Below are positions 18,643-43,312 of a stretch of 64,000 bases of DNA, piece by piece. Below the pieces are notes generated by a model that was not told where the DNA came from, did not search any database, and saw only the letters and a program-made list of their open reading frames with translations. The DNA is from Candidatus Melainabacteria bacterium (GTDB taxonomy: Bacteria > Cyanobacteriota > Vampirovibrionia > Obscuribacterales > Obscuribacteraceae). The stretch covers positions 141,152 through 205,151 of the forward strand of contig RXJR01000011.1 of assembly GCA_003963305.1 (NCBI GenBank), read 5' to 3'. The translations under genes were made by a program, and so were the position numbers. Every line of letters starts with the position of its first letter. Position 1 is the stretch's first letter.

Positions 18643-21600
18643 TCACCAGCTCACTAACGATTGAACGGAAGATCCGCAAATCATGGCACGATAGGCATCA
18701 GCTTCGGCAATGCGGCCCTGTCTATCGAGGAAGTTGGCATAAGTCTCAATCAACACAAAATATTCCGGAGCATCCTGATAAGTATCCATCATTTTCAGGG
18801 CGTTCTTGTAGAGCTCCTCGGCTTGACCATATTTACCCTGACCGCAATAAATAGTGGCAATATTCTGGTCCACAGTCGCAGCAACGATGGCTTCCGGCCG
18901 ACTGTTACCAGCATAAGACTTGCGCAAAACAGAATTAATCGTACTTGTATTACGAACGTGAGAGGCGGAAGCAATCATCTGATCTTGCAAGCTGGAATTC
19001 GTAAACTCGTCGATAGCGAAAGTTTGGTCCAACTCGTCAGAACCATCTCTAAACAGGTCCGACTCTCTGTCGCTGATGTCTGAGTTATTTCCGTCGTTAA
19101 CTGTGCCACTACTTAAATTAGTGTTGCCGAAGTTTCCGCTGCTATTACCAGTGTTTAGACCGCCTTTGCCGCTGCCGTCGCCGACGTTACTTACGAACTT
19201 TGAACTCTGACGGGCAGTAGGCTTCGACAGGAACCCGGTCGGAACGAATTTTGTGGCGAGACTTGGTAATGCTCCTTGAGGAGTCTGGCTCGCACTCCAT
19301 CTTGGGTCACTGGCAGGAGCGTTCACCTGATTCGTATTGCCCCCCGGAAAAGTAAACTGCTCAACGGCTTGAGAATGACCACCCAAAGTGCTACCAGAAA
19401 CAGTGGCAACATATCCATCGGCGGCATCGCCGCGAATGACAACGACTTCACTGCCGTTGTTAACGCTGACAGTATTGTTTGTCGAATCATAGCTGGCACT
19501 ATCGGAAACACGCTGTCCAGCACTGTCCAGATGATATGCGCTATATTGACCATTTGCAGACTGTGCGATGGTTTCAACCTGCCCACCAGAGTGAATTTCG
19601 AATTGAGGCGAACTTGTGCCAGCCGCGTAAGAAATAGTCACCGAAGTGTTTTCGTCAGACGCTGAGCCACCAGTTCCAATGCTGTAGTGAGTGCTGGTAT
19701 CGTAAACGGTGCCATCCGCCCCCACAGAAGTGCTTTCACTTGCTATAAGATGCCCGACGGGATTAGCGGCATCAACGCGCGCGTCGTATTGCTTAACGTC
19801 GTATCCGCCTTGTTGGTTCTGCTCGACAGTTGTGTATCCAATTGAGGCGCCGCCTGCATCAAAGCTCGTGGAGCAACTGTGCATCAGTGTACTATTTGCA
19901 TCTACAAGAGACGAGGTCACCACATAGCTTCCATCGGCACCATATGTAGTTTGAGAGCATTCAACATTTCCATTGGCAGCATATGAATATTGAGCATCAG
20001 AAATGACTGTCGTACCATCAGCAGCAACAATCTTGTCCTCCAATAATTTGCCATCGGTATAGGTCTTGTTCTCAACCGTGCCATCAGCTCTCACTTGGGC
20101 TGATGCGATGGCATTGAGCGGTACAAAATTCTGGTCAACAGAAGCGTACGTAGTTTGCAACCAGTCAGATCCCTTGCCGGAGGGGTCCGAGACTTGAGAA
20201 TTCAAAGTCACAGTACCATCAGCATTTAACATCATGCCGGAAACGATCTGGTTGTTGCCGGCATCATCGATCAGCTGCCCGATTTGCTTGCCTGTCGAAT
20301 CAAACTGTCCAATCGTGTCTGTCAAAACACCGCTAGCAGAATTAGCAATTGTGTCGACTTGCGAACCCAATGCGTTATGGTTGCTATCGAAAAACGTGGT
20401 TGTCATCGACGATGTGTCATTTCCGCTTGAAAGGAGCGACGACACCGTTTCAAAGGCGGCTATTTGACCATCAACTCCGGTATAACTAATACTGCGACTG
20501 CCGTCGGTATTATTTGTGACCGCAAACGATTCTAAACCGCCTGCAATACCTGGCGTATGATCCAGAGAGATGCTGACAGGATTTCCGTTCGCATCAGTTA
20601 AAACATCGACCCTCGTGCCATCACTCGCGAATCCAGAGAGAGGCTCGCCGACGCTACCAACAAAGGTATCAACTGAACCGGTAGCACCTATAACCGTAAT
20701 AGCTTCCAATCCATTTCCGAGATTACTGACGTATACCAGATCCCCGTTCTGTCCAGCAAATTGCAAGGTCGCTTGCCCAGCTGCACCAAAGGTGTCTTGC
20801 GCGATCATGGCACCAGAAGATGTTTGAGTAAATTCTACAGTTGCACCGCCGATGCTATTTGGAGAAACCGTTAAAGTCTCTCCATTCGGCAGATCGAGCT
20901 TGAAACCTCCACTTCCATCAGAGACCATCGACATCGGCGTGCCGATCAACTTACCGTTTTCGTCAACCAATTGCCCTGTAAATCCACCCTTACCATCAGA
21001 ACCGATCTGCAGATGGTAATCGCTGTTTGGAATTGGAGTACTGAATATGCCGGAAGCACCACTCAACGGAGGAGGAACGTGATTTACACCGACAGGCACA
21101 ACGCTGCCTGCATAAGAGCTGGAAAGGTTCAGTCCGCCCCCTTCGCTCCCGCTGCCAGCGCCACCTTCTCCTCCAGCTCCGCTGCTGTTGCCAGAGCCAT
21201 TTCCCGTAGTATCAGATACCCAGGTTCCACTCTTGCTGTCAAAAGTGAGCATGTGTCCGTTGGCATCTACTGCATGCATTTTGCCGTCCGCCATGCCTGG
21301 AAGCAAATGTGCGCCTGGGGGTAACTTTCCGGCACTAGCGCTCGCGCCTGAACCTTTGCCGGCAGCGCTGCCACCACCCGCACTACCGCTCCCCTGGGGC
21401 TGAGTTGCCTTTTGTGCAGCATCTTGTCCAGCCGCCGCTACCAGCCCCGCAAAGTCAAAAGCATATTTCACGCAGGATGTAGACAGGAAATTCAACGCAG
21501 TAAAAATATATGTCCCCGTCGTTCCATAGTCTTTGAAACACGCCATCAACAAAATTGTCGTATTCCAGAACATAGACCAGAAGCAAAGCGTGATCACGCC

Positions 21601-22794
21601 TTCAATCCAATTTGGCAGGGCTTCGCGCAACTGCTTCACTGGCCATACCCAGAGAGCGGCAACGATTGGACCGACCAAGTACAGGTAACAGAGATAAGCC
21701 ATCTGAAATGCACACAAAATATTCCAGCCTGTAGTCGAAGCGGCATTAGCGCCATAAACGGCGAGGCGAGAATAGACAACGTTAGCAGGCATTGCTTCGT
21801 TGACATGACCGGGTGCCGCAGGTGCACCGCCACAGGGATCCGGACTGCCGTTCCCGAAGTTTTGCGACTCCAGATCTGACCCCTGTGGCCACGGTGGCAC
21901 AGAGCCGTTTCCAGCCGATGCGCTGGCGCCATTTGTCGGCATGGCACGCAACTCGCCGCAAAGCGCATCTTTATACATATTGGAGCCAAACATGCGAGTA
22001 TATTGGTCGCTGATGGTAAATGTAATGCAGTTCGAGAAATCAATGCCATAGCTGATCACAAGATAAGTTGCCGGTATCAGAAAAACGGCCACAATTGCCC
22101 GCAAGATTCCATCGAATGGATTTACGTTTCCGAGCACCGGATTACCCGCCGACGCAATCGCCTTTACTTGAGCCAGAACTGCGCCTGGTAGCAAAAGCAA
22201 AACAGCGATAGGTATGAAGATCGAATCACGAATTCTGTTCCAACGGCTGCCCCCATCGTTGGCAAAGTTCTGCATAAACCTTGAACAAAAATCGATCGCA
22301 CCAGCTGCATTATCCTTAGCAGCCCCACCTGCGGAATCGCCAGCTTGCTGCCCAGCGGCAGCCTGAGCGGCTTGAGCAGCAGGTGGCTGCTTGGCCGGAT
22401 CCATTGCATTCATGCTTGCAGATACGGCACTCTGAACAGCAGCTTGTATCAATTGATTGATTGTTGGATAACCACCATCAAGCCCCATAGTGGCAAATAC
22501 TTTGTCGAGAATTGACTTAAGTAATGGAGTAACCATGAAAGGTGGTGGCAATGTGCCGTCAGGATTCTTTATCTTGGGCTGATACAGCACCATAGGTCCG
22601 TCTTTGACCTGTCCACCGTATTCGGTGCTAAGAACGCTGAGACGATCAGGATTAGTGCCCGCCCAGTGTTTTGCCAGAGAAGCGACCGATCCATCATCAC
22701 TGCGATCCGGTCCTAAGGCTCGAGCCGGTGCTGCTGTACTCGCACATAAACAAATCAATAGAAAAAGCGAGGCTATCAGTTTCAATGTATTCAC
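18643..22794 (-). CDS. giant VirB6-like membrane protein fused to RHS-like beta repeats and a TPR (1383 aa)
   Basis: Residues 1-26 are a signal peptide (LFLLICLCASTAAPARA). Residues about 195-275 and 355-455 contain the membrane core: FIPIAVLLLLPGAVLAQVKA, AIVAVFLIPATYLVISYGID, YLCYLYLVGPIVAALWVWP and a Trp-rich helix region. The 542-aa neighbour has the same segments in the same order, so the two are paralogous there. A Gly/Ser-rich linker (about 465-570) leads into some 600 residues of beta-rich repeats with Asp-Gly turns, such as ADGTVENKTYTDGK and YGADGSYVVTSSLVD, resembling RHS/YD repeats. The C-terminus (about 1300-1370) is a TPR pair (YGQAEELYKNALKMM). VirB6-type function is inferred from topology. 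No RHS core cleavage motif was recognised. Confidence 0.8.
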   Translation of the reverse strand: MNTLKLIASLFLLICLCASTAAPARALGPDRSDDGSVASLAKHWAGTNPDRLSVLSTEYGGQVKDGPMVLYQPKIKNPDGTLPPPFMVTPLLKSILDKVFATMGLDGGYPTINQLIQAAVQSAVSASMNAMDPAKQPPAAQAAQAAAGQQAGDSAGGAAKDNAAGAIDFCSRFMQNFANDGGSRWNRIRDSIFIPIAVLLLLPGAVLAQVKAIASAGNPVLGNVNPFDGILRAIVAVFLIPATYLVISYGIDFSNCITFTISDQYTRMFGSNMYKDALCGELRAMPTNGASASAGNGSVPPWPQGSDLESQNFGNGSPDPCGGAPAAPGHVNEAMPANVVYSRLAVYGANAASTTGWNILCAFQMAYLCYLYLVGPIVAALWVWPVKQLREALPNWIEGVITLCFWSMFWNTTILLMACFKDYGTTGTYIFTALNFLSTSCVKYAFDFAGLVAAAGQDAAQKATQPQGSGSAGGGSAAGKGSGASASAGKLPPGAHLLPGMADGKMHAVDANGHMLTFDSKSGTWVSDTTGNGSGNSSGAGGEGGAGSGSEGGGLNLSSSYAGSVVPVGVNHVPPPLSGASGIFSTPIPNSDYHLQIGSDGKGGFTGQLVDENGKLIGTPMSMVSDGSGGFKLDLPNGETLTVSPNSIGGATVEFTQTSSGAMIAQDTFGAAGQATLQFAGQNGDLVYVSNLGNGLEAITVIGATGSVDTFVGSVGEPLSGFASDGTRVDVLTDANGNPVSISLDHTPGIAGGLESFAVTNNTDGSRSISYTGVDGQIAAFETVSSLLSSGNDTSSMTTTFFDSNHNALGSQVDTIANSASGVLTDTIGQFDSTGKQIGQLIDDAGNNQIVSGMMLNADGTVTLNSQVSDPSGKGSDWLQTTYASVDQNFVPLNAIASAQVRADGTVENKTYTDGKLLEDKIVAADGTTVISDAQYSYAANGNVECSQTTYGADGSYVVTSSLVDANSTLMHSCSTSFDAGGASIGYTTVEQNQQGGYDVKQYDARVDAANPVGHLIASESTSVGADGTVYDTSTHYSIGTGGSASDENTSVTISYAAGTSSPQFEIHSGGQVETIAQSANGQYSAYHLDSAGQRVSDSASYDSTNNTVSVNNGSEVVVIRGDAADGYVATVSGSTLGGHSQAVEQFTFPGGNTNQVNAPASDPRWSASQTPQGALPSLATKFVPTGFLSKPTARQSSKFVSNVGDGSGKGGLNTGNSSGNFGNTNLSSGTVNDGNNSDISDRESDLFRDGSDELDQTFAIDEFTNSSLQDQMIASASHVRNTSTINSVLRKSYAGNSRPEAIVAATVDQNIATIYCGQGKYGQAEELYKNALKMMDTYQDAPEYFVLIETYANFLDRQGRIAEADAYRAMICGSSVQSLVSW

Positions 22795-22886: not shown

Positions 22887-24515
22887 TTATGTGACAGCGG
22901 GCATAGCCGCAGGTTGACTGGCACTGCGTCCAGGGTCAGTTACACCAGCCGAGCCACCGCTCGAACTACCGCCTTGACCAGCCTTATCCAACAAAGCTGA
23001 AACCAGAGATCCTGGCTTGTATTCGAATGGCATGAAAGGCACGTAAGTCAACATCACCACGAATGCGGTGTAAACAACGCCTTCCCAGGGGCTATTTGGA
23101 TTGTACTGACCTATGTCCTTCAGCCATTGGATACGAACACACATACACAAGATAATCAACGACCACCAAAACCTCCACAAGGTCAAGCAAACCAATCCGT
23201 TAATCCAATTGGTAAATACATTTTTGAAAAGGGTATTCGTAGTTGATGGCCAGGCGTAAAAGGCTGCAGCAATCGGACCGAGCAAGTACAGATAACACAT
23301 CATAACGACTTGATATGCAATAAGAATAACCAGTGCTCCAGTGAAAAGAGAATTGATAAAGCCGAAGGCCGCTCGCTTAAAAGCGCTCTTTCCACTCTGC
23401 TGTGCCTCCAGTTTTGCTTGCTCTGCAGGGGTTGCAGCTTTCGGTTTCGAAGTTTGGGCATCAGCCCAGTTCTGCACATCTTGAATTTGAACCTGCTGCA
23501 CCATCACCTCGGTCATGCTGTTACCAATGTCAATTGCATAGCTGACAATTAACTGAGTCGCGGGAATCAGAAACAGAGCAATCGCAGTGCGCAAGAATCC
23601 AGTGAAGGGACTTAAAGCATCTTCGTCATTAGAGTCATTAATGACGCCGAATTTGACCACTCCTTTGATCTGCGTAATAAGAGCACCAGGAAGAATCAGC
23701 AGGATCGCGACAGGAACAAAGGTTGTGCGGTACATTGTCTGAACCATGCCTACTGCGCGCCCGTAGGCACCGCTGGCAGTTTCATTAGCAACATTGACAA
23801 GACTTTTGATAGCGGAACTCATCGCCGATTGAAGATTCGAATTCGAAGCATCGTTCGATGCATCTCCAAATTGTTGCGTCTGCGCCTGCGTTGTCGCCTG
23901 TGTATTGTCGTAATTGACCAGTACACTCGACTCGGAAGTAATCATTGCAGAGGTAGTCGCTGCCATTCCTGCATAGAAATCATTCGATGGAACACCGGTC
24001 GTCTGAGCGGGAAACCATTGCTGCGGACCATTAACAGGCGCAACAACTTGCGGCTGCGTAAACCAGAAAGGCGCACCAGGGGGACCCGGCAAAACCACCC
24101 AACCTGCCGGCGACGTGGTACTCCCATAGGCAGTGAGATTGCGCTTTATCTCGGACGGCGTGAGAAATTGATTTACCAGCGGATTTTTAGTGTTATTCGC
24201 GGAATTGGGTTCAGTAATCGAAAGATCACCACTGGACATGCCACCAATTTGACCCCAATCACTGTGAACTCGTGGCATCTGCGGTAAACTCGCTGGCACA
24301 ACAATGGTCATAGCTTCATTGCGTGCAGTGAACGGAGTCCAGCGAAGTTGTTGGTGATGGAAGTCTGCAAAAGATGGACCGGCCGTCAGCGAGAGTTGTG
24401 CTTGTCCATGAGAGTTGTTTGCAGCTTCGGCTCGCGAAGGATCGCCAAGCACTAAAGCAAAAAACACCATCAAAATAGCCCAACGCGCCTGTCGAATATT
24501 CCGCGTGTTTTTCAA
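22887..24515 (-). CDS. VirB6/TrbL-like polytopic membrane protein (542 aa)
   Basis: Residues 1-32 form a signal peptide. About 220 periplasmic-type residues rich in Pro, Gln and Asn follow. The membrane core from about residue 255 has five or six helices: FVPVAILLILPGALITQIKG, TAIALFLIPATQLIVSYAID, VMMCYLYLLGPIAAAFYAWP, NWINGLVCLTLWRFWW and AFVVMLTYVPFMPF. The tail is Gly/Ser-rich. The motif GPIAAAFYAWP followed by a W-rich helix resembles the conserved region of VirB6/TrbL inner-membrane channel proteins. It is paralogous to the N-terminal half of the 1383-aa protein directly downstream. It starts 19 nt after the 73-aa gene, so the three probably share an operon. Confidence 0.8.
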   Translation of the reverse strand: MKNTRNIRQARWAILMVFFALVLGDPSRAEAANNSHGQAQLSLTAGPSFADFHHQQLRWTPFTARNEAMTIVVPASLPQMPRVHSDWGQIGGMSSGDLSITEPNSANNTKNPLVNQFLTPSEIKRNLTAYGSTTSPAGWVVLPGPPGAPFWFTQPQVVAPVNGPQQWFPAQTTGVPSNDFYAGMAATTSAMITSESSVLVNYDNTQATTQAQTQQFGDASNDASNSNLQSAMSSAIKSLVNVANETASGAYGRAVGMVQTMYRTTFVPVAILLILPGALITQIKGVVKFGVINDSNDEDALSPFTGFLRTAIALFLIPATQLIVSYAIDIGNSMTEVMVQQVQIQDVQNWADAQTSKPKAATPAEQAKLEAQQSGKSAFKRAAFGFINSLFTGALVILIAYQVVMMCYLYLLGPIAAAFYAWPSTTNTLFKNVFTNWINGLVCLTLWRFWWSLIILCMCVRIQWLKDIGQYNPNSPWEGVVYTAFVVMLTYVPFMPFEYKPGSLVSALLDKAGQGGSSSGGSAGVTDPGRSASQPAAMPAVT

Positions 24516-25416: not shown

Positions 25417-27648
25417 TCACAAAATCTCAGGTTGTCGCCGGGAATCCATCATCAAGCTTGATTCACTGGCAACGGCCGATGCATCTCGATTTGGCAATTT
25501 AAACCAAAAGGTAGAACCATGCCCCAACTCGCTCTCCACACCTATTGAGCCCATATGCTGCTCGATGATTGCTTTACAAATTACAAGTCCCAAACCGGTT
25601 CCACCCTTTGCTGTAGCATCGGTTCGCTCCACTTGCTTGAATCTCTGAAACAATGAATTAACATGGGAAGGTGGAATCCCCCGTCCCTGGTCTGTAATTC
25701 TAACTTCATCCATATCGGTACCAGGAACGACGTCTATAAGAACCGTGGATCCTTTCGGTGAATACTTAATTGCGTTCGAAAGAAGATTGATCAAAACCTG
25801 TACGATGCGATGATCATCGGCATAAACCTGGCTGGCAGTTTGCTGATATTGAACCGACACATTGTGCTCATCAGCGAACGCTTTGACTGACTCCACCGAC
25901 ATTTCAAGAATCGGATAAAGCGGACGCAATTCAAACTGCATATCGAGTTTTCCTGCTTCCAACTTTTCTGCATCAAGAAGATCATTTACCAGACCTATCA
26001 ATCTAGTAGCACTTCGTTCAGCAATCGTAATTGCTTTCTGTGCTTGCTCAGTTTGTTGACCCAACGCACCCACCATCATCATCTTCAGTGATCCGCGGAT
26101 GGCGGTAAGTGGATTACGCAATTCGTGACTGACGACGCCCAGAAATTCGTTTTTGAACCGCTCGATTTCATGACGTTCAGTGACATCCGTAATTATGCCC
26201 AGAAGCCGTCCTGAACCAGGACCACCAAATGGAGTGACAAGCACTTCGGCGGGAAACTCGCTTGAGTCCGCTCGAACTGCTGTCACTTCATGAAATCGCC
26301 CTGATGCCTTTTCGAACAATTCGTCGAGTTTTTTGTCTGAATTAGGGGCTGGTGTCAAATAAAGATCAGTCAGTTTTGAGCCGAGCAATTCATCACTGCG
26401 ATGCCTTCGAAACATTTTTCGCATCATCGGATTAACCAGTTCGACAGTGCCGCTACGATCGAATAGAATCAAACCGACTGGCATAGTATCTATGATTGAG
26501 CGAGTTCTGGCCTCGCTCTCCTTTAGAGCCTCTTCATTTCTTTTACGCTCAGTAATATCATGAGCAACGCAAAACAATGCATTCTCCGCTCTCGACCACT
26601 GAACGGACCAAAGAATGTGCTGCTGATTACCGTCGGGCAGTTGCATAAGAGTCTCAAATTCCGATTTGTGAGGAGATGAAACAAGTGATTTCAAAGTTTG
26701 CGCAAACGACTCACGTTGCTCCGGTACGCACAACTGAATAACACGCTGCCCAATCAAGTCTTCTGGCTGAATTTGCCACACTGTCGCTGAAGCGGGACTG
26801 ACTCTGAGAAACTTCCCGTCAGCATCGAGTGAACAGATTACGTCTACAGCGTTCTCGACTATTGCTCGCTCTTTCTGTTCCGCTTCACGCAATACCGCGG
26901 CCATTTTGTGAAATACCTCATCCAGATCACTTATTTCGTCAGACCCTTTGCTGGGTGGAAGCAACTCTTTCCCCATTGCAAGCAAAGCCGTATTCTGCAT
27001 AAGAACACCTAACCGGGCTGCCGTACCCATGTTGAACCACACAGCAAGACAAACGACGACCAAAACATTTGCTGACATACTGAGCAAAATCAGCGTGATG
27101 ATTTGATCGCTCAGTTCTTTTTGAATATTAGGTCGCTTATTGTCTTCGTTCTTCAGTTCAACCACGAAACTGCGTATCAGTTTAACGTCGTCTATTTCAA
27201 TAGGAATTAGAGTCTGCTTTAAGTCACTAAATTTGCCCAAAACATCAGTTTTGTCCGTTTGCATTAACGCCATAAAGTCGTCAACACTGCGAAGTCCGTC
27301 GGTAATGTCTCTATCCAGTCGCTTGATCAGAGACAACTGACTCGCTTCAGATTGAGTCATCTTCAGAAGCTTATCAATGTCGCTGCGCATTTGTTGCCGT
27401 GCTCTTTCGTATTCTGACAAATCAGCATCATTGGAAGTCGCAACATAGTTGGTCGCAGCATTTCGCATTTGAACCGGCAAGGAGTACAAATCTTCGAGTG
27501 TCGAAATCTTTTCCTTGAGCTCTGCCTGTATCAGAGTCTTTTCGTTAGCTGCATTCACCAGCCAGATTAAGACTGAAACAAAGCAAATCTGAAGAATCAG
27601 CGGAATGCAAATCAACAAGTAAACTTGGCGAGAAAGAGTAAATTTCAA
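25417..27648 (-). CDS. membrane sensor histidine kinase with HAMP-like and two PAS domains
   Basis: The 743-aa protein begins with a membrane helix (about 8-32), a helical periplasmic sensor of about 150 residues of the CHASE3/four-helix type, and a second helix (about 183-208). A HAMP-like coil and two PAS domains follow (about 265-370 and 380-490; both end in the typical DITERK/DVTERH). The HisKA H-box is VVSHELRNPLTAI, with His present. The ATPase domain has LLSNAIKYSPKG, DQGRGIP and GGTGLGLVICK. The start is a TTG without a strong ribosome site. No response regulator is adjacent. Its core is close to that of the soluble kinase at 2884. Confidence 0.92.
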   Translation of the reverse strand: MKFTLSRQVYLLICIPLILQICFVSVLIWLVNAANEKTLIQAELKEKISTLEDLYSLPVQMRNAATNYVATSNDADLSEYERARQQMRSDIDKLLKMTQSEASQLSLIKRLDRDITDGLRSVDDFMALMQTDKTDVLGKFSDLKQTLIPIEIDDVKLIRSFVVELKNEDNKRPNIQKELSDQIITLILLSMSANVLVVVCLAVWFNMGTAARLGVLMQNTALLAMGKELLPPSKGSDEISDLDEVFHKMAAVLREAEQKERAIVENAVDVICSLDADGKFLRVSPASATVWQIQPEDLIGQRVIQLCVPEQRESFAQTLKSLVSSPHKSEFETLMQLPDGNQQHILWSVQWSRAENALFCVAHDITERKRNEEALKESEARTRSIIDTMPVGLILFDRSGTVELVNPMMRKMFRRHRSDELLGSKLTDLYLTPAPNSDKKLDELFEKASGRFHEVTAVRADSSEFPAEVLVTPFGGPGSGRLLGIITDVTERHEIERFKNEFLGVVSHELRNPLTAIRGSLKMMMVGALGQQTEQAQKAITIAERSATRLIGLVNDLLDAEKLEAGKLDMQFELRPLYPILEMSVESVKAFADEHNVSVQYQQTASQVYADDHRIVQVLINLLSNAIKYSPKGSTVLIDVVPGTDMDEVRITDQGRGIPPSHVNSLFQRFKQVERTDATAKGGTGLGLVICKAIIEQHMGSIGVESELGHGSTFWFKLPNRDASAVASESSLMMDSRRQPEIL

Positions 27649-28110: not shown

Positions 28111-30309
28111 ATGACACGTCGCCGTAGAAAGGGTGCCACGCTTGGTTTGGTGGCAATATGCGTCCTTGTAGTTATTGTCATCGGTACCGCGGTGTTTTTC
28201 CTCATCAAAATCCTTGGCGGAGGCCGAGAAATAGCCAATGCCACCGATGCAGGCGCGCTGAACGTGGCAAAGCACATCATACGTGATGCAAGAGTCAACA
28301 CCCCGGCGCAGTTTCAAGATTGCGAATATCCACTCGGATGTGGATACATCAATCTGCTCACCTACAACCGTTGCGTAGCCAAAGCGATCATGATTGCCGG
28401 TAATGCCTCAAACATGACGGGACCAGGTGCTTATAAAGCAAATGCCAACGCGCTCATCGATCAATTAGAGTCAATGGGAAGTGAACTAGCAGGCAAAATT
28501 ACCAGTTCGAACAATTATTTCAATGACGTAAACAACACCGTCCGAATGGCATCTTTTATAGGCATCAAAAACGAGACCCCCTGCGAAATCGCGTATATGA
28601 AGCCAGCCGGACCAACGAACGTTTTTTTTAACGGGCAGCAATTAGCTAACGGTTTGACAATTCCTGTTTCAACAACAACTGTAGGTCCCAAAAATCAAAA
28701 TAGCTATGTTGCTGTTGGAACCGGACAAGGCTACATGGCTGGTTATTCACCGATCACTGTGATGGGACGAACAATTTATGGAGTTCCCGTTTTTCCACAA
28801 CAAAATCCGCACTTGGTTTCATTTTTCGATTTCAGCAGTTCTGGAAAACCTTTTGGTTCGGCGCCACCAAATGCAGTGAAACTCGGCTCCAGCACAACAG
28901 AAATGAAGACACAAATGCTAACCGGAGCAATGGCGTGCGCAATTGTCGGAGCAGTTGAAAATGGTTCACCTGGTGCCGGCGGCTCAAACATAGGCACATC
29001 ACTTCTCGGAAGCGGTTTCCAATTTCCTGCAGCCGCCTCCTACGGTTACATCGAATTTGGTAATTTCCCGGCCAATCAGACGCCACCTGGCTATGACCCA
29101 AAGGACTATAGCGACAATATATTTAACAACGAATTGATGTCTCCAGGATTTACCGCATACGGTGAAAATCAGTCGACCCAGTTGAGCAATTTCGTCACAT
29201 ACAGTGCAACGGCGGGCGCCGCACAGGCTTGGGTAGAGTGGGCTAAAGGTGTCAAGAAAGGGCAACAATTACAACAAGACACGGGTCAGACAGTAACGAT
29301 TCCAGACGCCCCGAACATCGACGGTTACACTTACGTCGGTCCATCAAATGAGGACTTGAGCGGTAGTCCATTGAAACCAGGCACTAAGCCGAGTCAAAAA
29401 CAGATTGACTGGCTGGCAAGCATGGTCGACAAAAGCGAGAATTGCTTTGCCGACCTGGCGTTCAGAGAGGGCTTGATGGGTGCTTGCGTAGCGGCACTGC
29501 CTTCCATGCAACTTACGTACGGTCACAAAGTGCCAGACTTGAATCCAGGTGGTTCGCAAAAGTTCTCCCAGGCAGATTGGGCAAAAGCAGAATTGCTTAC
29601 TTTGTTTGAGGGATTGAATCCACAAAACGGCAATTACAATAACTATGCAACAGTAAATCTGACATCGGGAGCGCCAAGTTCCGGATTAGGCATCTATCCG
29701 TCAAGCCTTATAAGCGGGAAAGTTCCGAGTAAACCGCCAAATATGCCGACACCTGAATACACCTTGCCTCTACAGGGACCAGGCACTATAAAACAGTTGA
29801 TACAAGCCGTGCAAGATCCAGGCTGCGCCAATGACACAATAGCTGCAATCGCCAACCGTTGCAAACAGATCCAACCGCAGACAACGGATGCTGATATAGA
29901 CAAGCTTCTCAACACGACTCTGGAGATGGCACCACCGAATACACCTAAGTGGGAGAATGCGCACAAAATATATATCTATCTTCCCGGAGGCGATTTGAGC
30001 GCGAAGCTTATCATCAGTGAATCTCCGCCCCCGAAGTTGACCGGCAATCCTCCTGACGGCTGCTGTTCTTATCCAAATACAAATAATGCTTGCTACACGA
30101 ACACTTATTACCTGGACGGATCAATTGTCGATTCAGAACACGACCAGAAAGTGCACATTAGACCGTACCTGGAAATCGACGATACGAATCCATTAAGATG
30201 CATCGATCACGCCGACTGGCAGCCAGGCTCAGGAGCAGACAACAATTTTGGTAGAATGACCTTCACCGAAATTGGCTTAGGTACTACGACTTTCACACAT
30301 ATCAACTAA
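28111..30309 (+). CDS. TadG-like (Flp pilus TadE/G-type N-terminus) large exported protein (732 aa)
   Basis: GAGGAATC lies before the ATG. The start MTRRRRKGATLGL, a hydrophobic helix (about 12-34) and then IANATDAGALNVAKHI match the N-terminal helix of TadG-like proteins, where AADAAALAGA is usual. The rest (about 690 residues) is a large extracytoplasmic domain rich in Asn, Gly, Pro and Thr with scattered Cys, ending in a Thr-rich strand. It lacks an evident VWA MIDAS motif, which many TadG proteins carry. No tad ATPase, secretin or prepilin peptidase lies nearby. A small secreted protein follows after 9 nt. Confidence 0.7.
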   Translation: MTRRRRKGATLGLVAICVLVVIVIGTAVFFLIKILGGGREIANATDAGALNVAKHIIRDARVNTPAQFQDCEYPLGCGYINLLTYNRCVAKAIMIAGNASNMTGPGAYKANANALIDQLESMGSELAGKITSSNNYFNDVNNTVRMASFIGIKNETPCEIAYMKPAGPTNVFFNGQQLANGLTIPVSTTTVGPKNQNSYVAVGTGQGYMAGYSPITVMGRTIYGVPVFPQQNPHLVSFFDFSSSGKPFGSAPPNAVKLGSSTTEMKTQMLTGAMACAIVGAVENGSPGAGGSNIGTSLLGSGFQFPAAASYGYIEFGNFPANQTPPGYDPKDYSDNIFNNELMSPGFTAYGENQSTQLSNFVTYSATAGAAQAWVEWAKGVKKGQQLQQDTGQTVTIPDAPNIDGYTYVGPSNEDLSGSPLKPGTKPSQKQIDWLASMVDKSENCFADLAFREGLMGACVAALPSMQLTYGHKVPDLNPGGSQKFSQADWAKAELLTLFEGLNPQNGNYNNYATVNLTSGAPSSGLGIYPSSLISGKVPSKPPNMPTPEYTLPLQGPGTIKQLIQAVQDPGCANDTIAAIANRCKQIQPQTTDADIDKLLNTTLEMAPPNTPKWENAHKIYIYLPGGDLSAKLIISESPPPKLTGNPPDGCCSYPNTNNACYTNTYYLDGSIVDSEHDQKVHIRPYLEIDDTNPLRCIDHADWQPGSGADNNFGRMTFTEIGLGTTTFTHIN

Positions 30310-32497: not shown

Positions 32498-35400
32498 TCA
32501 CCTGGTGGGAGTGTAAGTGTCTAATAACTCTTTGCAATAGCTCTGCACCTGCTCGTATATACTGTGCAATTGCATGTAAAGAGTTGGTGCCAGATCCCAA
32601 TTTTGTGCGACTGCTGTTTGTTCGAGTTCCTTGCAAAGCACCGCCATATCGGAAGACCCCATCGATCCACACGATCCTTTCAGCTCATGAGCAGCGGATT
32701 TCAACTTGCTCGAATCTTTAGCAGTGACAGCGTCGTATATGCGCGTCAACAAAGTATCAGTGGATGACGTGAAAACACCGATCAACTCAATGGCACCATC
32801 TATACCGCAAGTCTCTTTCAAGGATTCAAAATTCAACAACCCCGGCGGTCGCACATATACACTGGCCGGAGACTCGTTCTTCTGAGCAGGCTGCACGCCT
32901 CGCCATGCGGCCGAATCTGTTTTAAACCAGCGCAATAAGACCTCTTTGAGCTTGGCGGCAGTGACGGGCTTGCTCACATAATCATCCATGCCGGCTGCGA
33001 TACATTTTTCTCGATCACCTTGCATAGCGTGAGCAGTCATGGCGATAATCGGAATGTGTCGCCCGGTCAGAACCTCAGCCTTGCGAATTGCGCCTGTCGC
33101 CTCGAATCCATCCATATCGGGCATCTGACAGTCCATCAGGATAAGAGAGTAGGGCGTATGATTGACGACTTCAACCGCTTCTCGCCCGCTGCCGACAACA
33201 TGCGCTGAAAATCCAAGTTCTTTGAGCAGCATCATTGCCACTTTCTGATTTACCGGATTATCCTCGGCAACCAGCACCATACCTGTCTTCTGAAAAACTG
33301 TCATTTCGGCTGTCGTGTTCAATCGTGGCGGCATGTACGATGCTAACGATTCTTTCTCGGCCCTGTCTTCAGCGCTCAGAACGAGAGCGATGCAATCAAA
33401 AAGTCGCGACTGCTTGAGCGGCTTGATCAGGTATGCAGAGAAACCAGCTTGCAGAGCGCCTTCGCCAAGCCTACCTTTATCTTCAGCAGTGCATAGAATC
33501 AATTTAGTCTTGCTCAAAATTGGATCTGCCTGCACGGTTTGAGCAAAAGCAAGCCCAGCCGAATTCGGCATAGTGAGCTCAACAATGGCGAGGTCAAACG
33601 GCTTTCCACTCTCAACCGCCGCTCGCATCGACGTCAGCGCATCGTTCAGACCCGGTACAGTCTCGCAAATCATGCCCCAATTGGCAGTGTAATCTTGAAT
33701 AATTTTGGCGGTGCCTTCCAACGTTTCGACAAGCAATACGCGCGTATTTTCAAGATCGAATTTGCCTCGATCGATGGGCTGCTCCGGAGCCGCTTGAGAG
33801 CGCTCCAGCGGCACGGAGAACCAGAAAGTCGAGCCCCTACCTTCAGTGCTGCGCACACCGATTCTGCCACCGAGCAATTCCACCAGCAACTTCGCAATTG
33901 ACAGCCCCAGACCTGTGCCACCATAACGACGCGTAATTGAACCATCAGCCTGAGTGAAAGGTTGAAACAACCTGTAAACGGCTTCCTGAGGCATGCCAAT
34001 GCCGGTATCGCGAACCGAAAACTTGACGCGGCAACGTTTCTCGTCCATGGCATCTAACGTTGCTTCAACAACAACTTCACCGCTTTCAGTAAACTTGATC
34101 GCATTGCTCAATAAATTGAGAAGAATTTGACGCAAACGCCCAGGGTCCCCACGCAACGATGTAGGCACATCCGGGGCGACATAGGTCATCAAGGAGAGTT
34201 TCTTCTGTCGCGCTTGACCGGCGATCAACTCCGCCGTACCCTCGACGACGTGTAAAAGCTCGAAGTCGACAATTTCCAACTCCAACTTGCCTGCTTCGAT
34301 TTTGGAAAAATCAAGGATATCGTTGATGATATCCAGAAGCGCTCTGGCGGAATCTTGAATGATGTTCGCCACCTCGACCTGCTCGTCGGTCAGTCTCGTG
34401 CGCATCAACATATCGCTCATGCTGATTACACCATTAATCGGTGTACGAATCTCGTGACTCATATTGGCGAGAAAAACAGATTTAAACCGCGACGCTTCTA
34501 AAGCCTGATCGCGAGCCTGTTCCAGCTTAGAGGCAAGCGACTTGAGCTCGCGATTGGCGTTGGCCAGCTCAATCACTCTTTTCTCCAGCGCTTCATTCAA
34601 TCGCTCAATCTGCTCTTGAGCGCGCTTCCGTTGCTGCACACTGCGCAGCAATGATCGTACACGAGTGACCAGCTCAGCCGGATGGAATGGCTTGAAGAGA
34701 TACTCGTCAGCACCAGCCTCCCAGCCCTGCAACATGGCTTCGCGCTGTGTGAGCGGCGTCAATAGCACAACTGGAATAACAGCACTTTCAGGTCGAGATT
34801 TAACTTCGCGACAAAAACTCAAACCGTCTCGTTTCGGCAACATAACTGCAGCCAGAATCAAGTCAGGATGCCACTCATTAGCAAGAGCAAGCGCTTCTTC
34901 TCCGTCAGCAGCAAGCTTGGTCATGCACATTTCATTGAGCAATCCCTGAATGTATGTTGCCAACTCCGCATTATTTTCAGCGATTAGCACTCGCGGCAGA
35001 TGCTTTCCAACTTCAGTCTTATGCGGCTGCGGAGCGACGGTTACAGACTGCATAACCGGTGACTCGACCCGAGGCAACAACGCGGCTGGAAGTTCAGTCA
35101 CGGGCGCGAAGACATCGACAGTAAAAAGACTTCCCTGCCCGGTGCCGCTACGCACTGAAACCGTGCCATTCAATAGATCTGCGTACTCTTTAACAAGGGA
35201 GAGCCCCAGTCCGACACCTTCAACGTGACGTGATGAGACTTCGTTCAACTGTTTAAATTCCTGAAACAGCGACTTCAACGTTTCATCAGGAATGCCGACG
35301 CCGGTATCGAGAACTGACAACTCGAGCCGATCGTCCTTGTGGCGTAACGAGACTTTAACCTGCCCGCCGGCCATAGTAAACTTCACCGCATTTGATATCA

Positions 35401-35977
35401 AATTGGATACTATGCGTTCGTACATATAGCGATCGATCATGACAAACAAATTTGCTTGCTGAGGATCATAGGTCAAGGTTATGTTTCTCGAAGCAATGAT
35501 TGACTGGAAATCTGAAACTACAGCCCCAGTTAAAACTGCAACATCTACCGGCTGCCGACTGACCTGAATCGAGCCGGATTGCACTACAGAAAAATCCAAG
35601 AGCCCGGATACCATTTGCAGCAAACGCACGGAATTGTTGTGGATTGTGCGAAGCAGAGCACTTTGATCAGCGGTAAGTGCGCCATGATTGCCCATCAGCA
35701 ACGACTCGAGCGGCGCGAGAATCAAAGTGAGCGGCGTACGCAACTCAGTTGAAACATTAGCCAGCAGGGTAGCTCTACGGTCGTTTGCACTCTGCTTAGA
35801 TTTGTCACCGCCAAGAAAGCCGACTTTTAGCTGCCTGGTTCGCTCCGATTTATCCCTATTGGAGTCGTTGTTGGACGACTCGCCTTCATCGGACGACTCA
35901 GAAGACTCCTTTGACGAGGAGCCCAATCGCCTTAAAACTTTCCAGGAGCTCTTGAAAAACCCGCTCATTCCGACCAC
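32498..35977 (-). CDS. hybrid histidine kinase with an inactive first kinase and receivers (1159 aa)
   Basis: Numbered from the GTG at 35977 (an ATG at 35968 is an alternative). After a Ser-rich start come six modules. First, HisKA-HATPase 1 (about 68-290) has Thr77 where the phospho-His should be (NVSTELRTPLT), but an intact N-box and G-boxes. Receiver 1 (about 328-446) has Ala377 instead of the phospho-Asp. A coiled coil leads to HisKA-HATPase 2 (about 500-725) with His508 present (MSHEIRTPING). Receiver 2 (about 745-865) has Glu800 in place of Asp. Receiver 3 (about 900-1018) is complete (Asp949). The Hpt domain has His1097 (AAHELKGSCGSMG). The working relay is therefore His508-Asp949-His1097, while the front half is probably regulatory. 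No membrane segment is seen. Confidence 0.93.
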   Translation of the reverse strand: MVGMSGFFKSSWKVLRRLGSSSKESSESSDEGESSNNDSNRDKSERTRQLKVGFLGGDKSKQSANDRRATLLANVSTELRTPLTLILAPLESLLMGNHGALTADQSALLRTIHNNSVRLLQMVSGLLDFSVVQSGSIQVSRQPVDVAVLTGAVVSDFQSIIASRNITLTYDPQQANLFVMIDRYMYERIVSNLISNAVKFTMAGGQVKVSLRHKDDRLELSVLDTGVGIPDETLKSLFQEFKQLNEVSSRHVEGVGLGLSLVKEYADLLNGTVSVRSGTGQGSLFTVDVFAPVTELPAALLPRVESPVMQSVTVAPQPHKTEVGKHLPRVLIAENNAELATYIQGLLNEMCMTKLAADGEEALALANEWHPDLILAAVMLPKRDGLSFCREVKSRPESAVIPVVLLTPLTQREAMLQGWEAGADEYLFKPFHPAELVTRVRSLLRSVQQRKRAQEQIERLNEALEKRVIELANANRELKSLASKLEQARDQALEASRFKSVFLANMSHEIRTPINGVISMSDMLMRTRLTDEQVEVANIIQDSARALLDIINDILDFSKIEAGKLELEIVDFELLHVVEGTAELIAGQARQKKLSLMTYVAPDVPTSLRGDPGRLRQILLNLLSNAIKFTESGEVVVEATLDAMDEKRCRVKFSVRDTGIGMPQEAVYRLFQPFTQADGSITRRYGGTGLGLSIAKLLVELLGGRIGVRSTEGRGSTFWFSVPLERSQAAPEQPIDRGKFDLENTRVLLVETLEGTAKIIQDYTANWGMICETVPGLNDALTSMRAAVESGKPFDLAIVELTMPNSAGLAFAQTVQADPILSKTKLILCTAEDKGRLGEGALQAGFSAYLIKPLKQSRLFDCIALVLSAEDRAEKESLASYMPPRLNTTAEMTVFQKTGMVLVAEDNPVNQKVAMMLLKELGFSAHVVGSGREAVEVVNHTPYSLILMDCQMPDMDGFEATGAIRKAEVLTGRHIPIIAMTAHAMQGDREKCIAAGMDDYVSKPVTAAKLKEVLLRWFKTDSAAWRGVQPAQKNESPASVYVRPPGLLNFESLKETCGIDGAIELIGVFTSSTDTLLTRIYDAVTAKDSSKLKSAAHELKGSCGSMGSSDMAVLCKELEQTAVAQNWDLAPTLYMQLHSIYEQVQSYCKELLDTYTPTR

Positions 35978-39328: not shown

Positions 39329-39403
39329 GCCATGTTATATCCTGTGGGCACCGATCGACGGTTACCTACGTCTCTAATCCATCGCCATGTCCGGGAGGAT
39401 TTA

Positions 39404-40429
39404 ATGCTGCCTGTTCCGAAAGACTATGAACCGATGGAGGCAACTCTCACAAGTGAACTGCCGAGAGGCGAAGGCTGGCAGTATGAGCCCAAATGGGATG
39501 GATTTCGTTGCCTGGCTTTCAAGGAAGGAAAAGATATTCAGCTGCAATCTAAAAGCGGCCGCGAACTCGGCAGATACTTTCCAGAAATAATCGAATATTT
39601 ACAGAATCTTGATGCGCCCTGCTTCGTTCTAGACAGTGAAATCGTAGTGCCGTCAGGAAATGAATTTTCCTTTGATGACCTTCTACAGCGCATTCACCCG
39701 GCAGCCAGCCGAATAAAGAAACTGGCCCGGGAGACACCGGCAGTAATGATTGTCTTCGACATTCTCACAGACGAAAGGAATGAGTCACTGGTGATGGAAC
39801 CGCTGAGCAGCAGGCGCGTGAACCTGGAAAAATTCGCAGCGAAATATCTGACCGGCAATTTGAATGTCGTGCTGTCTCCTGCCACCACAAACGCTACCGT
39901 CACAGATGATTGGTTGGCAAAGATGGGCAATCGCCTCGATGGCATCGTCGCCAAAAGACTGGATTTGCCATATCAGTCAGGCAACAGAAAAGGCATGCAA
40001 AAAGTCAAAAAACTGCGCACTGCTGACTGTGTGGTTGGCGGCTTCCGCTACGCCACAGGCACTAAAAAAGCTATTGGCTCGCTTCTACTTGGTCTGCATG
40101 ACGAGAAAGGGCTTCTCAATCACGTGGGGTTCAGCTCATCGTTTACCGCGAAGGAGCGGGTTCAACTGGTAGAAAAGCTCGAACCATTGATCGCAAAGCC
40201 AGGTTTTACAGGAGACGCTCCGGGCGGTCCAAGCCGCTGGAGCACAGAACGAAGCACTGAATGGGAACCGCTCAAAAATACTTTGATTGCTGAGGTGACA
40301 TACGATCACTTCACCAATGGGCGATTCAGGCACGGTACACGCTTCGTTCGCTGGAGACCGGACAAAGCGCCTGAACAGTGCACCTACGAGCAGATTCACG
40401 GATACAGAGCGCCATCGGTTAAGTCCTGA
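39404..40429 (+). CDS. ATP-dependent DNA ligase, LigC/LigB type (341 aa)
   Basis: The ATG at 39404 has GGGAGGA 5-6 nt upstream. The nucleotidyl-transfer motif EPKWDGFR carries the lysine (Lys30) that becomes adenylated. Other motifs are LDSEIVV (III), the motif IV region LDGIVAKRLD, and MQKVKKLRTADCVVGG (V). An OB-fold follows, ending in FVRWRPDKAPEQC. It is a stand-alone ligase of the kind found next to LigD in bacteria with NHEJ. It lies 9 nt upstream of the LigD gene and is probably co-transcribed. Confidence 0.93.
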   Translation: MLPVPKDYEPMEATLTSELPRGEGWQYEPKWDGFRCLAFKEGKDIQLQSKSGRELGRYFPEIIEYLQNLDAPCFVLDSEIVVPSGNEFSFDDLLQRIHPAASRIKKLARETPAVMIVFDILTDERNESLVMEPLSSRRVNLEKFAAKYLTGNLNVVLSPATTNATVTDDWLAKMGNRLDGIVAKRLDLPYQSGNRKGMQKVKKLRTADCVVGGFRYATGTKKAIGSLLLGLHDEKGLLNHVGFSSSFTAKERVQLVEKLEPLIAKPGFTGDAPGGPSRWSTERSTEWEPLKNTLIAEVTYDHFTNGRFRHGTRFVRWRPDKAPEQCTYEQIHGYRAPSVKS

Positions 40430-40438
40430 GGAGACGAC

Positions 40439-43312
40439 ATGCTCAAAGAGTACAACCGAAAGCGTGACTTTAAAAAGACGCCAGAACCCAGCGGTAAAGC
40501 ACCCGCTCAGGCGGACGGCGCTCTCAAATTTGTTATACAGAAGCATGCCGCACGGCGACTCCACTATGATTTTCGCCTCGAGATAGACGGGGTCTTAGTA
40601 TCCTGGGCGGTACCAAAAGGTCCAGCACTCGATCCCGCCGAAAAGCGACTGGCTGTGCAGACAGAAGACCACCCCATGGATTACGGCAGCTTCGAAGGTA
40701 TCATCCCGAAAGGCCAGTACGGCGGCGGGGAAGTGATTGTCTGGGATAGTGGCACATACACACCAGATGAAGGCGGCATCCTGTCATGGAACGATAGAGA
40801 AGAAGCCCAAGAACGCATGCGTGAAGGTCTTAAGAAAGGAAAAATTTCCATCTTCCTGGAAGGCTCGAAGTTACAAGGCTCCTGGACACTGGTCAAGATC
40901 AAAAAGACGGAAAAGGAGTGGCTTTTGATCAAGCACTCCGATGCATTTGTCCGAACAGACAAAGATCCAACCGAAGAGGAAGAATCTGTGCTGACTGGAC
41001 GCACACTGGCAGATGTGAAGGCGGGGAAAAAAGGAAAGTCCATCAAGGCACCCAGGGTTGAGATAGGCAAAGCAAAACGCTTTCCCCGCACCATAAAGCC
41101 TATGACGGCAAGTCTTGCCGAAAGACCATTCAGCAAAGCGGGCTGGGTTTTCGAACCAAAAATGGATGGCATCAGGGCAATCGCATTTATCGAAAACGGA
41201 CAGGTGACACTTAAATCCAGAAACGACCTTGATTTAACATCGCAGTTTCCGGCGATCGCAGCGAGCCTTAGCAAGTATCCGGGAGATCTGATTTTGGACG
41301 GCGAGATAGTCGCTCTAAATGAAAAGGGTCGTCCATCCTTCCAACATCTGCAACAACGCGGCAAACCAACCAAGACGAAATCAGGCGGCAGCGCGCCGAT
41401 CATTTACTACCTGTTTGACGTCATCCACTGCCAGGGGCGCAGCCTCGAAGACGAACCTCTATCTGAGAGACGCAGAATTCTTGTCGAACAAATCAGACCA
41501 ACTCACGACATCCGCATCATCGAACAATTCCCAACAGAGGGAGAGTCAGCCTATGAAGCTTGTGTCGCCAATGAGCTCGAAGGCGTAGTAGGCAAGCGCA
41601 TCGACAGCACATATGAAGTGGGGCATCGATCAAAAAACTGGCTCAAGATCAAATCAACTGCCAGCGCAGAATTCTTGATTTGCGGATACACCGAGGGCAC
41701 CGGAGCGCGAAATCACACATTCGGTTCTCTTATTCTTGGTACTCACGACGAGCAGGGCAAGCTCGTCTATGTAGGCGGCGTAGGAACGGGCTTTGACGAC
41801 AAGAAACTAAAAGCACTGATGAAACTGATGAAGCCACTCGTGGTCACCAGGTGCCCATTCAGCAAAAAGCCGCCGGGTAAACTGAACCCAACCTGGGTAA
41901 AACCAGAATTAATTGCCGAAATAAAATTCGCCGAATGGACTCAAGATAAAATCCTCCGCGCTCCAGTATTCCTGCGCCTCAGAGAGGACATTGAGCAAGA
42001 CGAAGTCAAATCAACACCGATGGTACAGATTAGCGATTTGAAGGCAGTCAAGTCGACAAAAGGCACCATCAAGAATGATCAAATTGACGAGAAGAACGAG
42101 CGCTCCACTTCTAAAACTGCAACCGGGGCAGGCTACAGCAAGAAGCAATCAAAGCATGCGAAGCAACTGGAGAACAGCGAGGAGGATTCCATGACCGCGG
42201 AAATTCTAGAGCAGCTAGACACGGACGGGGAAAAACTCGAGCTGGAAGTGGAAGGAAACAAGATTGCCTTCTCCAATCTGAACAAGGTTTTCTGGCCGGC
42301 GACTCCGGATATGGAAGCCGTAACGAAACGCGATTATGCTAAATATCTGACCAGAGTAGCACCATATTTGCTACCACATCTGCGCGACCGGCTCATTACA
42401 ATGGTGCGGTTCCCCAACGGCATCGGTCAGGGTAAGTTCTATCAGAAGCATTGGGAGCACAAGCTGCCACCATTTGTAGAAACAGTCAGACACTTCACAG
42501 AACACGCGGGAGTAGATCAAGATTTTCTCGTCTGCAACAATCTGTCGACCCTGCTGTGGCTGGCGCAGATTGCAGATTTAGAACTGCATACATCGCACAC
42601 ACGCAACAATCCACAGCCCGAAGGCTCGACACTTCCACGAAAGTATACGGGCGATGCAGAGACCCTGGAAGCATCTCTGATGAACTACCCGGATTACATG
42701 GTCATCGATCTCGACCCATACACCTACAGTGGCAAGGAAAAGAAGGGAGAAGAGCCCGAGCTGCACGAAAAAGGCTTTAAGCAAGCATGTCAGGTTGCTC
42801 TCTGGGTGAAGGAGCTGCTCGACAGCCTTAAAATCGCTGCCTTCATCAAAACCTCGGGCCGAACCGGGCTCCACATCTATGTGCCAATTGTAAGAACTAT
42901 TGACTATCCAACAGTGCGGATGCTCGCCGAGATTATCGGCAAACAGGTAATGAAACAGCACCCTGAAGATGTGACGATGGATTGGGCGATTGTCAAACGC
43001 ACAGGCAAAGTTTTCTTCGATCACAACATGAATGCGCGCAGCAAAACACTGGGGTCAATTTACTCGCCACGAATTGCCCCGGAAGCGACTATTTCGACAC
43101 CAATCGAATGGAGTGAATTAGGCCACGTATACCCGCACGACTTTACGATGCGCACTGTACCAGAGCGCTTGAAAGAAAAAGGCGATCTCTGGGCCGATAT
43201 TCTAGATCACAAAAATGACCTGGAGAAAATCCTGATCAACACCGATAAGGCACCATCTGCCATGGAAACACAAGTGGCAGCCAAGAAACGCAAACGCAAG
43301 TCAGCTGGTTAA
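40439..43312 (+). CDS. ligD: LigD multifunctional NHEJ protein (phosphoesterase-ligase-polymerase, 957 aa)
   Basis: The domains come in Pseudomonas-type order. Residues about 25-150 are the 3'-phosphoesterase (HAARRLHYDFRLE, DHPMDYGSFEGIIPKG). Residues about 215-550 are the ATP-dependent ligase with the adenylated Lys241 in FEPKMDGIRA, then DGEIVAL and LEGVVGKRID. A Lys/Ser-rich linker follows (about 555-600). Residues about 615-930 are the primase-polymerase (MVRFPNGIGQGKFYQKH, MVIDLDPYTY with metal-binding Asp, TSGRTGLHIYVPI). It trims, fills and seals double-strand breaks. No Ku gene, its usual partner, lies in the window. It is 9 nt downstream of the single ligase gene. Confidence 0.96.
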   Translation: MLKEYNRKRDFKKTPEPSGKAPAQADGALKFVIQKHAARRLHYDFRLEIDGVLVSWAVPKGPALDPAEKRLAVQTEDHPMDYGSFEGIIPKGQYGGGEVIVWDSGTYTPDEGGILSWNDREEAQERMREGLKKGKISIFLEGSKLQGSWTLVKIKKTEKEWLLIKHSDAFVRTDKDPTEEEESVLTGRTLADVKAGKKGKSIKAPRVEIGKAKRFPRTIKPMTASLAERPFSKAGWVFEPKMDGIRAIAFIENGQVTLKSRNDLDLTSQFPAIAASLSKYPGDLILDGEIVALNEKGRPSFQHLQQRGKPTKTKSGGSAPIIYYLFDVIHCQGRSLEDEPLSERRRILVEQIRPTHDIRIIEQFPTEGESAYEACVANELEGVVGKRIDSTYEVGHRSKNWLKIKSTASAEFLICGYTEGTGARNHTFGSLILGTHDEQGKLVYVGGVGTGFDDKKLKALMKLMKPLVVTRCPFSKKPPGKLNPTWVKPELIAEIKFAEWTQDKILRAPVFLRLREDIEQDEVKSTPMVQISDLKAVKSTKGTIKNDQIDEKNERSTSKTATGAGYSKKQSKHAKQLENSEEDSMTAEILEQLDTDGEKLELEVEGNKIAFSNLNKVFWPATPDMEAVTKRDYAKYLTRVAPYLLPHLRDRLITMVRFPNGIGQGKFYQKHWEHKLPPFVETVRHFTEHAGVDQDFLVCNNLSTLLWLAQIADLELHTSHTRNNPQPEGSTLPRKYTGDAETLEASLMNYPDYMVIDLDPYTYSGKEKKGEEPELHEKGFKQACQVALWVKELLDSLKIAAFIKTSGRTGLHIYVPIVRTIDYPTVRMLAEIIGKQVMKQHPEDVTMDWAIVKRTGKVFFDHNMNARSKTLGSIYSPRIAPEATISTPIEWSELGHVYPHDFTMRTVPERLKEKGDLWADILDHKNDLEKILINTDKAPSAMETQVAAKKRKRKSAG

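Follow-up and report, generated by a model that had tools for sequence, protein, structure and literature searches.

An extended VirB6-like protein from an orphan gene pair of Obscuribacterales, a probable alternative subunit for a single type IV secretion-like machine

The locus

Here we describe a gene found in a 64,000-nucleotide stretch, referred to as the window, of a draft genome (7.48 Mb) of Candidatus Melainabacteria bacterium, a member of the Obscuribacterales. The open reading frame occupies positions 18643-22794 of the minus strand and comprises 1383 codons with a GTG start; a gene for a protein of 542 amino acids (aa) precedes it on the same strand, with a gap of 92 base pairs (bp) between the two. 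We consider it probable that the product of this gene is the long partner in an orphan VirB6 pair, that is, one lying away from any VirB4 gene, and that such a pair could take the place of the resident one in a single chromosomal machine resembling a type IV secretion system (T4SS). The features on which the discussion relies are the following.

18643..22794, minus strand: long member of the pair, a 1383-aa extended VirB6-like protein of orphan type (open reading frame, genome paralogues, orphan clade in the tree)
22714..22794, minus strand: signal-peptide-like N-terminus, residues 1-27 (basic start, hydrophobic 6-24, APARALG)
21400..22452, minus strand: VirB6-like membrane core, residues ~115-465 (alignments, AlphaFold2, hhalign to VirB6, PDB fold match)
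21607..21672, minus strand: VirB6 hallmark GP-x19-W, residues 375-396, invariant in the family (core alignment against R388 TrwI)
21055..21402, minus strand: Gly/Ser/Ala-rich linker, residues ~465-580, mostly disordered (sequence; predicted local distance difference test, pLDDT, 24-53)
19390..21045, minus strand: beta-strand-rich segment with DG/NG turns, residues 584-1135, not RHS by profile (profile searches, AlphaFold2, shuffles)
18925..19389, minus strand: low-complexity stretch, residues 1136-1290, probably disordered (AlphaFold2)
18676..18900, minus strand: predicted C-terminal pair of tetratricopeptide repeats (TPR), residues 1299-1373 (Pfam, AlphaFold2; common to orphan-type paralogues)
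22887..24515, minus strand: short member of the pair, a 542-aa VirB6-like protein, upstream and co-directional (open reading frame, tblastn, profile comparison)

A first-pass annotation, made from the letters alone, had proposed for this protein a signal peptide, a VirB6-like channel core shared with the 542-aa neighbour, RHS-like beta repeats and a TPR pair, and the expected signal-peptide-like N-terminus is indeed present. Neither the core nor the beta part belongs to a curated Pfam family, the only Pfam matches being sub-threshold TPR models at the C-terminus. The ~900 residues that follow the core constitute a large C-proximal hydrophilic domain, which fits the definition of the extended VirB6 subclass (PMC12857230).

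A membrane core of VirB6 type

The core carries five helical hydrophobic segments within residues 184-443, three of them clear (192-210, 229-247 and 359-386) and two weaker ones reaching to ~443. Its most telling signature is a Gly-Pro pair followed by a Trp, invariant in an alignment of 64 long cores (G276, P277 and W297 of the core); in 31 short cores the Pro and the Trp are also invariant, with a longer spacer. In R388 TrwI and seven plasmid VirB6 proteins few positions are invariant, the corresponding G180, P181 and W199 belonging to them, and it is exactly this region of both families that hhalign places on TrwI G180, P181 and W199 in the VirB6 alignment. The profile of the short family reaches E 1.8e-4 against that alignment and that of the long family E 3.6e-4, and the scores of 40.1 and 37.5, respectively, exceed those of all 60 block-shuffled VirB6 controls run for each (means 18.5 and 17.3, maxima 34.0 and 26.9). 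The relationship is thus seen by profile-profile comparison; the Pfam TrbL model by itself does not reach the core, and TIGR03782 (TraJ) matches the 542-aa protein weakly (E 0.008).

A weaker indication comes from the predicted structure. AlphaFold2 renders residues 100-475 as all helical (pLDDT 76, predicted template modelling score 0.71), and Foldseek ranks R388 VirB6 first among 350,542 PDB chains with an E value of 0.73, weak by itself for a helical protein. In VIA-align, R388 VirB6 takes the top three places (Z 6.3-6.7, 216-234 residues aligned), a result that would likewise be unconvincing alone for a protein of this kind. The sole matches in a PDB profile search with the core were of the Get1/WRB type (E 1.8e-4), and these were judged to be a chance likeness between helical membrane proteins because the other evidence favours VirB6. 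Altogether, the VirB6-like nature of the core (residues ~115-465) is well supported by the hallmark, by a profile match above its controls and, weakly, by the best PDB fold match, in agreement with what the first-pass annotation had proposed.

The same core is common to the short neighbour, as had been suspected: the two proteins of the window match in tblastn with 38% identity over 139-264 (E 2e-16), and the short and long family profiles align with an E value of 1e-62.

A fast-evolving tail

The part of the protein behind the linker had been taken for some 600 residues of RHS-like beta repeats. Its beta-rich, DG-turn character holds, over ~550 residues: AlphaFold2 places ~40 fairly regularly spaced strands between residues 584 and 1132, with a mean pLDDT of 41 that is too low for a fold claim, residues 528-582 and 1133-1269 look disordered, and the strand-rich stretch (584-1135) contains 20 [DN]G pairs against 10.0 +/- 2.6 in shuffles. 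The RHS label is not supported. Even with the threshold at E 10, the RHS and YD profiles of Pfam and NCBIfam left the window tail unmatched, and a scan of 42 tails returned one weak hit, a single YD unit in the paralogue L012 (19.6 bits, NCBIfam cut-off 15.8), with no RHS, toxin or enzyme family recurring convincingly. An RHS-type beta cage or shell fused to the channel, to which the DG turns, the strand-alternating sequence and that one YD unit could be credited, is hardly credible in view of these searches and of the lack of a confident tail fold.

At the C-terminus the expected TPR pair is supported by a TPR_12 match over residues 1299-1373 (E 1.6e-4 with the whole protein, 8e-6 with the segment, below Pfam's cut-off) and by four predicted helices (pLDDT 63-80), and it is common to the orphan-type paralogues. 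Furthermore, 25 of 66 long proteins have a Trp within 14 residues of the C-terminus, where ~5% would be expected, the sequences being related and the count a lead only. It is most often third from the end; a Trp at that place ([NS]-x-W-x-x) recurs in orphan-type long proteins such as L012, L040 and L045, and the window protein ends in SW.

Identity is 84-99% in the cores and 35-77% in the tails, and the ratio of non-synonymous to synonymous substitution rates (dN/dS) is ~0.09-0.15 in tails versus 0.01-0.05 in cores, with dS near saturation in most comparisons. A tail ratio of ~0.1 indicates that the tails are constrained and not decaying; the tail changes several times as fast as the core but is held by purifying selection. 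Large variable tails could also be expected of an effector, released by cleavage or entering a target cell by way of the machine, or of a polymorphic toxin, and delivery has been proposed in the literature for Anaplasma (PMC3556328). Such a role seems very unlikely here: the 42 tails are without enzymatic or toxin domains, conservation is higher in the C-terminal TPR than in the middle of the tail, which is the reverse of polymorphic toxins, and downstream there is no partner gene recognised by Pfam. The polymorphic-toxin reading was dropped after the tail scans, in which no toxin domain appeared, immunity genes not being specifically searched.

Short and long pairs around one VirB4 operon

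The protein had appeared as a one-off fusion, and this view had to be given up, as its genome has at least seven paralogues, this one included, and its family extends throughout the order. A whole-genome search retrieved seven loci with a long protein, each adjoining a short one; just one of these pairs, at the C1 locus, lies in a T4SS-like operon, and the remaining six, among them that of the window, are orphans. The search for orthologues of the fusion likewise found the long and short pairs in most relatives.

The operon at C1 has an order kept across the Obscuribacterales, F4-F3-F2-short-long-(F7)-F1-VirB4-F8-F10, in which F7, of DUF2225 type, is often present. From its profile matches (NCBIfam CD1110 type, E 6.9e-59; TraC-F type, E 4.6e-49), the identity of VirB4 is secure. 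F1 is small, with two hydrophobic segments, and directly precedes VirB4; by this position and form it is a candidate VirB3-like protein, no profile having matched it. A search of the PDB with the F1, F2 and F10 profiles gave no relative from a T4SS.

Neither VirD4 nor a relaxase, the marks of conjugative T4SSs, was seen in the operon loci; conjugation was tested as a reading for the machine and dropped. Relaxase and VirD4 modules sit elsewhere in the genome. At L159 and L161 (G000:C26), a relaxase gene (PF03432) adjoins genes for VirD4-type ATPases, with no VirB4 nearby, and these modules may be mobilisable elements able to make use of a T4SS already present in the cell. At L156 (G000:C15:207000-226000), a second, diverged pair of VirB3-like and VirB4 genes is accompanied by a DUF2225-type gene and by a VirD4-like protein of 1024 aa (PF02534, E 2.2e-16), and no VirB6 pair lies near this second VirB4.

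Distribution and natural replacements

In a sample of 194 genomes of the class, members of the VirB6 family are present in 50 and the cognate VirB4, usually in single copy, in 51, all of them Obscuribacterales; the other families of the class gave no match to either. VirB6 matches number up to 13 per genome, counting both subunits and split hits. The disproportion is evident in the source genome, where seven short and long pairs stand against one cognate VirB4.

In a tree of 60 long cores built with IQ-TREE, the operon-linked cores form one group (22 rows, support 100/99) and the orphan cores another (100/99). The sole exception is L056 of genome G016, an orphan-type pair located in the operon. 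Conversely, two genomes have operons without a pair. In G007 the operon reads F4-F3-F2-F1-VirB4-F8-F10, with F2 and F1 separated by 5 bp, and all the VirB6 genes found are of orphan type and lie on another contig; in G086 it reads F4-F3-F2-F1-VirB4, and three orphan-type pairs lie elsewhere. The loss of the pair from these two operons, together with the orphan-type pair in the operon of G016, argues that the orphan pairs serve the same machine. They probably do, unless the machines of G007 and G086 are dead, and this comparison of genomes is the chief argument for exchangeability.

These same data bear on the alternative that the duplicated pairs have become neofunctionalised and act without any T4SS, for instance as adhesins or envelope scaffolds. 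Six of the seven pairs lie away from VirB4, and the orphan cores constitute a clade of their own, as such a reading would have it. Against it, the orphan cores are strongly constrained (dN/dS 0.02-0.05), in three genomes the VirB4 operon contains or depends on orphan-type pairs, and pair-bearing genomes occur within the order only, nearly always accompanied by VirB4. This alternative is accordingly regarded as improbable.

What is well supported is the VirB6-type core, the pairing, the occurrence of seven pairs for one cognate VirB4, and the existence of two pair-less operons in genomes with orphan-type pairs only. Several points weigh against taking the step from there to exchangeable pairs. 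G007 and G086 are incomplete metagenome-assembled genomes, and their operon-type pair may be missing from the assembly; the putative assembly of orphan pairs with the VirB4 machine rests on genome comparison; and the diverged VirB4 of C15 (L156), with its VirD4, might be the partner of the orphan pairs. The operon itself lacks VirD4 and VirB11, and F2 and F10, by profile search, as well as F3, F4 and F8, by Pfam only, were unmatched to VirB7-VirB10. Moreover, the predicted fold match of the core to R388 VirB6 stays under the level convincing for helical proteins, dS is near saturation in most of the dN/dS comparisons, and a reading of the core with five transmembrane (TM) segments would place the tail in the cytoplasm.

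A possible modular machine

R388 VirB6 forms a pentameric stalk (PMC9259494, PMC12857230); in its structure alpha1 and alpha2 are the only helices that span the membrane, the other hydrophobic ones being periplasmic (PMC9259494). With such a two-helix topology the C-terminus, and hence the tail, would be extracytoplasmic. The short and long pair would then build the inner-membrane and periplasmic stalk, and the tail would leave the core on the periplasmic side; within the envelope or outside it, this tail would be a rapidly changing interaction module with spacer, beta-hairpin and TPR elements. Most likely, each pair would be an alternative stalk for the one machine, its tail presenting a pair-specific interaction surface, and different pairs could confer different tips or partner specificities. 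The first-pass annotation had suggested that the beta part may be exposed at the surface or delivered. Extracytoplasmic exposure is, by analogy with the topology of R388 VirB6 and with the tails of Anaplasma VirB6-3 and VirB6-4, the likelier reading, and delivery has gained no support.

TPRs often act in the cytoplasm, and a scaffold on that side, with a five-TM core as in the Agrobacterium VirB6 model and a TPR recruiting substrates or chaperones, has to be weighed. An N-out, C-in arrangement would agree with the positive charge of the TM1-TM2 and TM3-TM4 loops and with a short helix at 428-443 that may be the fifth, and the VirB6 proteins of A. tumefaciens, Brucella and H. pylori are reported to be C-in (PMC7648143). 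However, R388 VirB6 has two membrane-crossing helices only, the rest being periplasmic (PMC9259494), extended VirB6 tails of Anaplasma are surface exposed (PMC7648143), and the Ser/Thr/Asn/Gly-rich beta tail looks like that of exported proteins, so that a cytoplasmic scaffold appears rather unlikely.

Carried to its full extent, the replacement of the resident pair by orphan pairs would describe a modular T4SS, in which one chassis with a single VirB4 exchanges its stalk among up to ~eight pairs with different exposed tails; we advance this wider view tentatively. If it is true, a cell would re-tip one machine for different partners, and the tails of extended VirB6 proteins would be specificity determinants.

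According to a 2025 review, the contribution of extended VirB6 domains to their T4SSs is not yet known (PMC12857230). The order-wide set described here offers many natural extended VirB6 variants per genome and one VirB4, with the resident pair lost or replaced in some genomes, so that the question can be addressed by comparison or exchange of pairs, and this in environmental organisms not known to be pathogenic. In addition, the Obscuribacterales, for which the papers searched describe almost no secretion machinery, gain a conserved T4SS-like machine.

Neighbouring genes

Histidine kinase genes lie near the window pair (window positions 25417-27648 and 32498-35977), and several other orphan pairs also have response regulators or kinases nearby; for want of a background rate, a separate regulation of the pairs by two-component systems is not claimed. 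At L180:5175-17465 and L064:4096-13348, short VirB6-type genes stand in tandem arrays with long ones that have little tail, which shows that the tail can be lost. A family of ~1000-1330-aa proteins recurs beside orphan pairs (L012:983-4978, also L034 and L041), and its L012 member matches annexin at Pfam's cut-off (E 9e-6). Elsewhere in the window, positions 28111-30309 encode a 732-aa protein with an N-terminal hydrophobic segment, which resembles Tad-type pilus proteins and co-clusters with two L037 genes, and positions 39332-43312 contain two adjoining ATP-dependent DNA ligase genes, the second being a LigD with polymerase and phosphoesterase domains (bacterial non-homologous end joining).

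Comparison with known systems

R388 TrwI (VirB6) shares with the present family the GP..W hallmark, an all-helical core and a VirB4-linked gene, and is its best, though weak, PDB fold match. It differs in having 342 aa, no large tail and one gene per system, and the sequence similarity is at profile level only.

F-plasmid TraG, compared by description, also joins a channel core to a large C-terminal hydrophilic domain, and the VirB4 described here matches the TraC-F type as well. TraG is present once per plasmid and is not known to be paired or duplicated, unlike the pairs of the Obscuribacterales. Its C-terminal domain serves mating-pair stabilisation and entry exclusion (PMC7648143). The MPF_C conjugation systems of cyanobacteria (pCC7120alpha type) resemble the present one, again by description, in their related phylum and VirB4-based machine; they are plasmid-borne, with relaxase and VirD4 (PMC8600333).

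In the Rickettsiales (RvhB6a-e; Anaplasma VirB6-1 to VirB6-4), VirB6 is duplicated and bears large, fast-varying hydrophilic C-terminal tails (PMC7648143, PMC2653234, PMC3556328), those of Anaplasma VirB6-3 and VirB6-4 being surface exposed (PMC7648143). The likeness, by description, lies in the duplicated extended VirB6 and in the virB3-virB4-virB6 cluster. Nevertheless, the rickettsial copies stand in tandem in the operon of the machine, whereas here they are mostly orphan short and long pairs scattered over the chromosome, with tails made of beta, DG-turn sequence and TPR. Extended and duplicated VirB6 proteins were already known, from the Rickettsiales and F TraG; what is new is the lineage, the pairing of a short with a long subunit, the dispersal of orphan pairs in genomes with one VirB4 machine, and the natural replacements.

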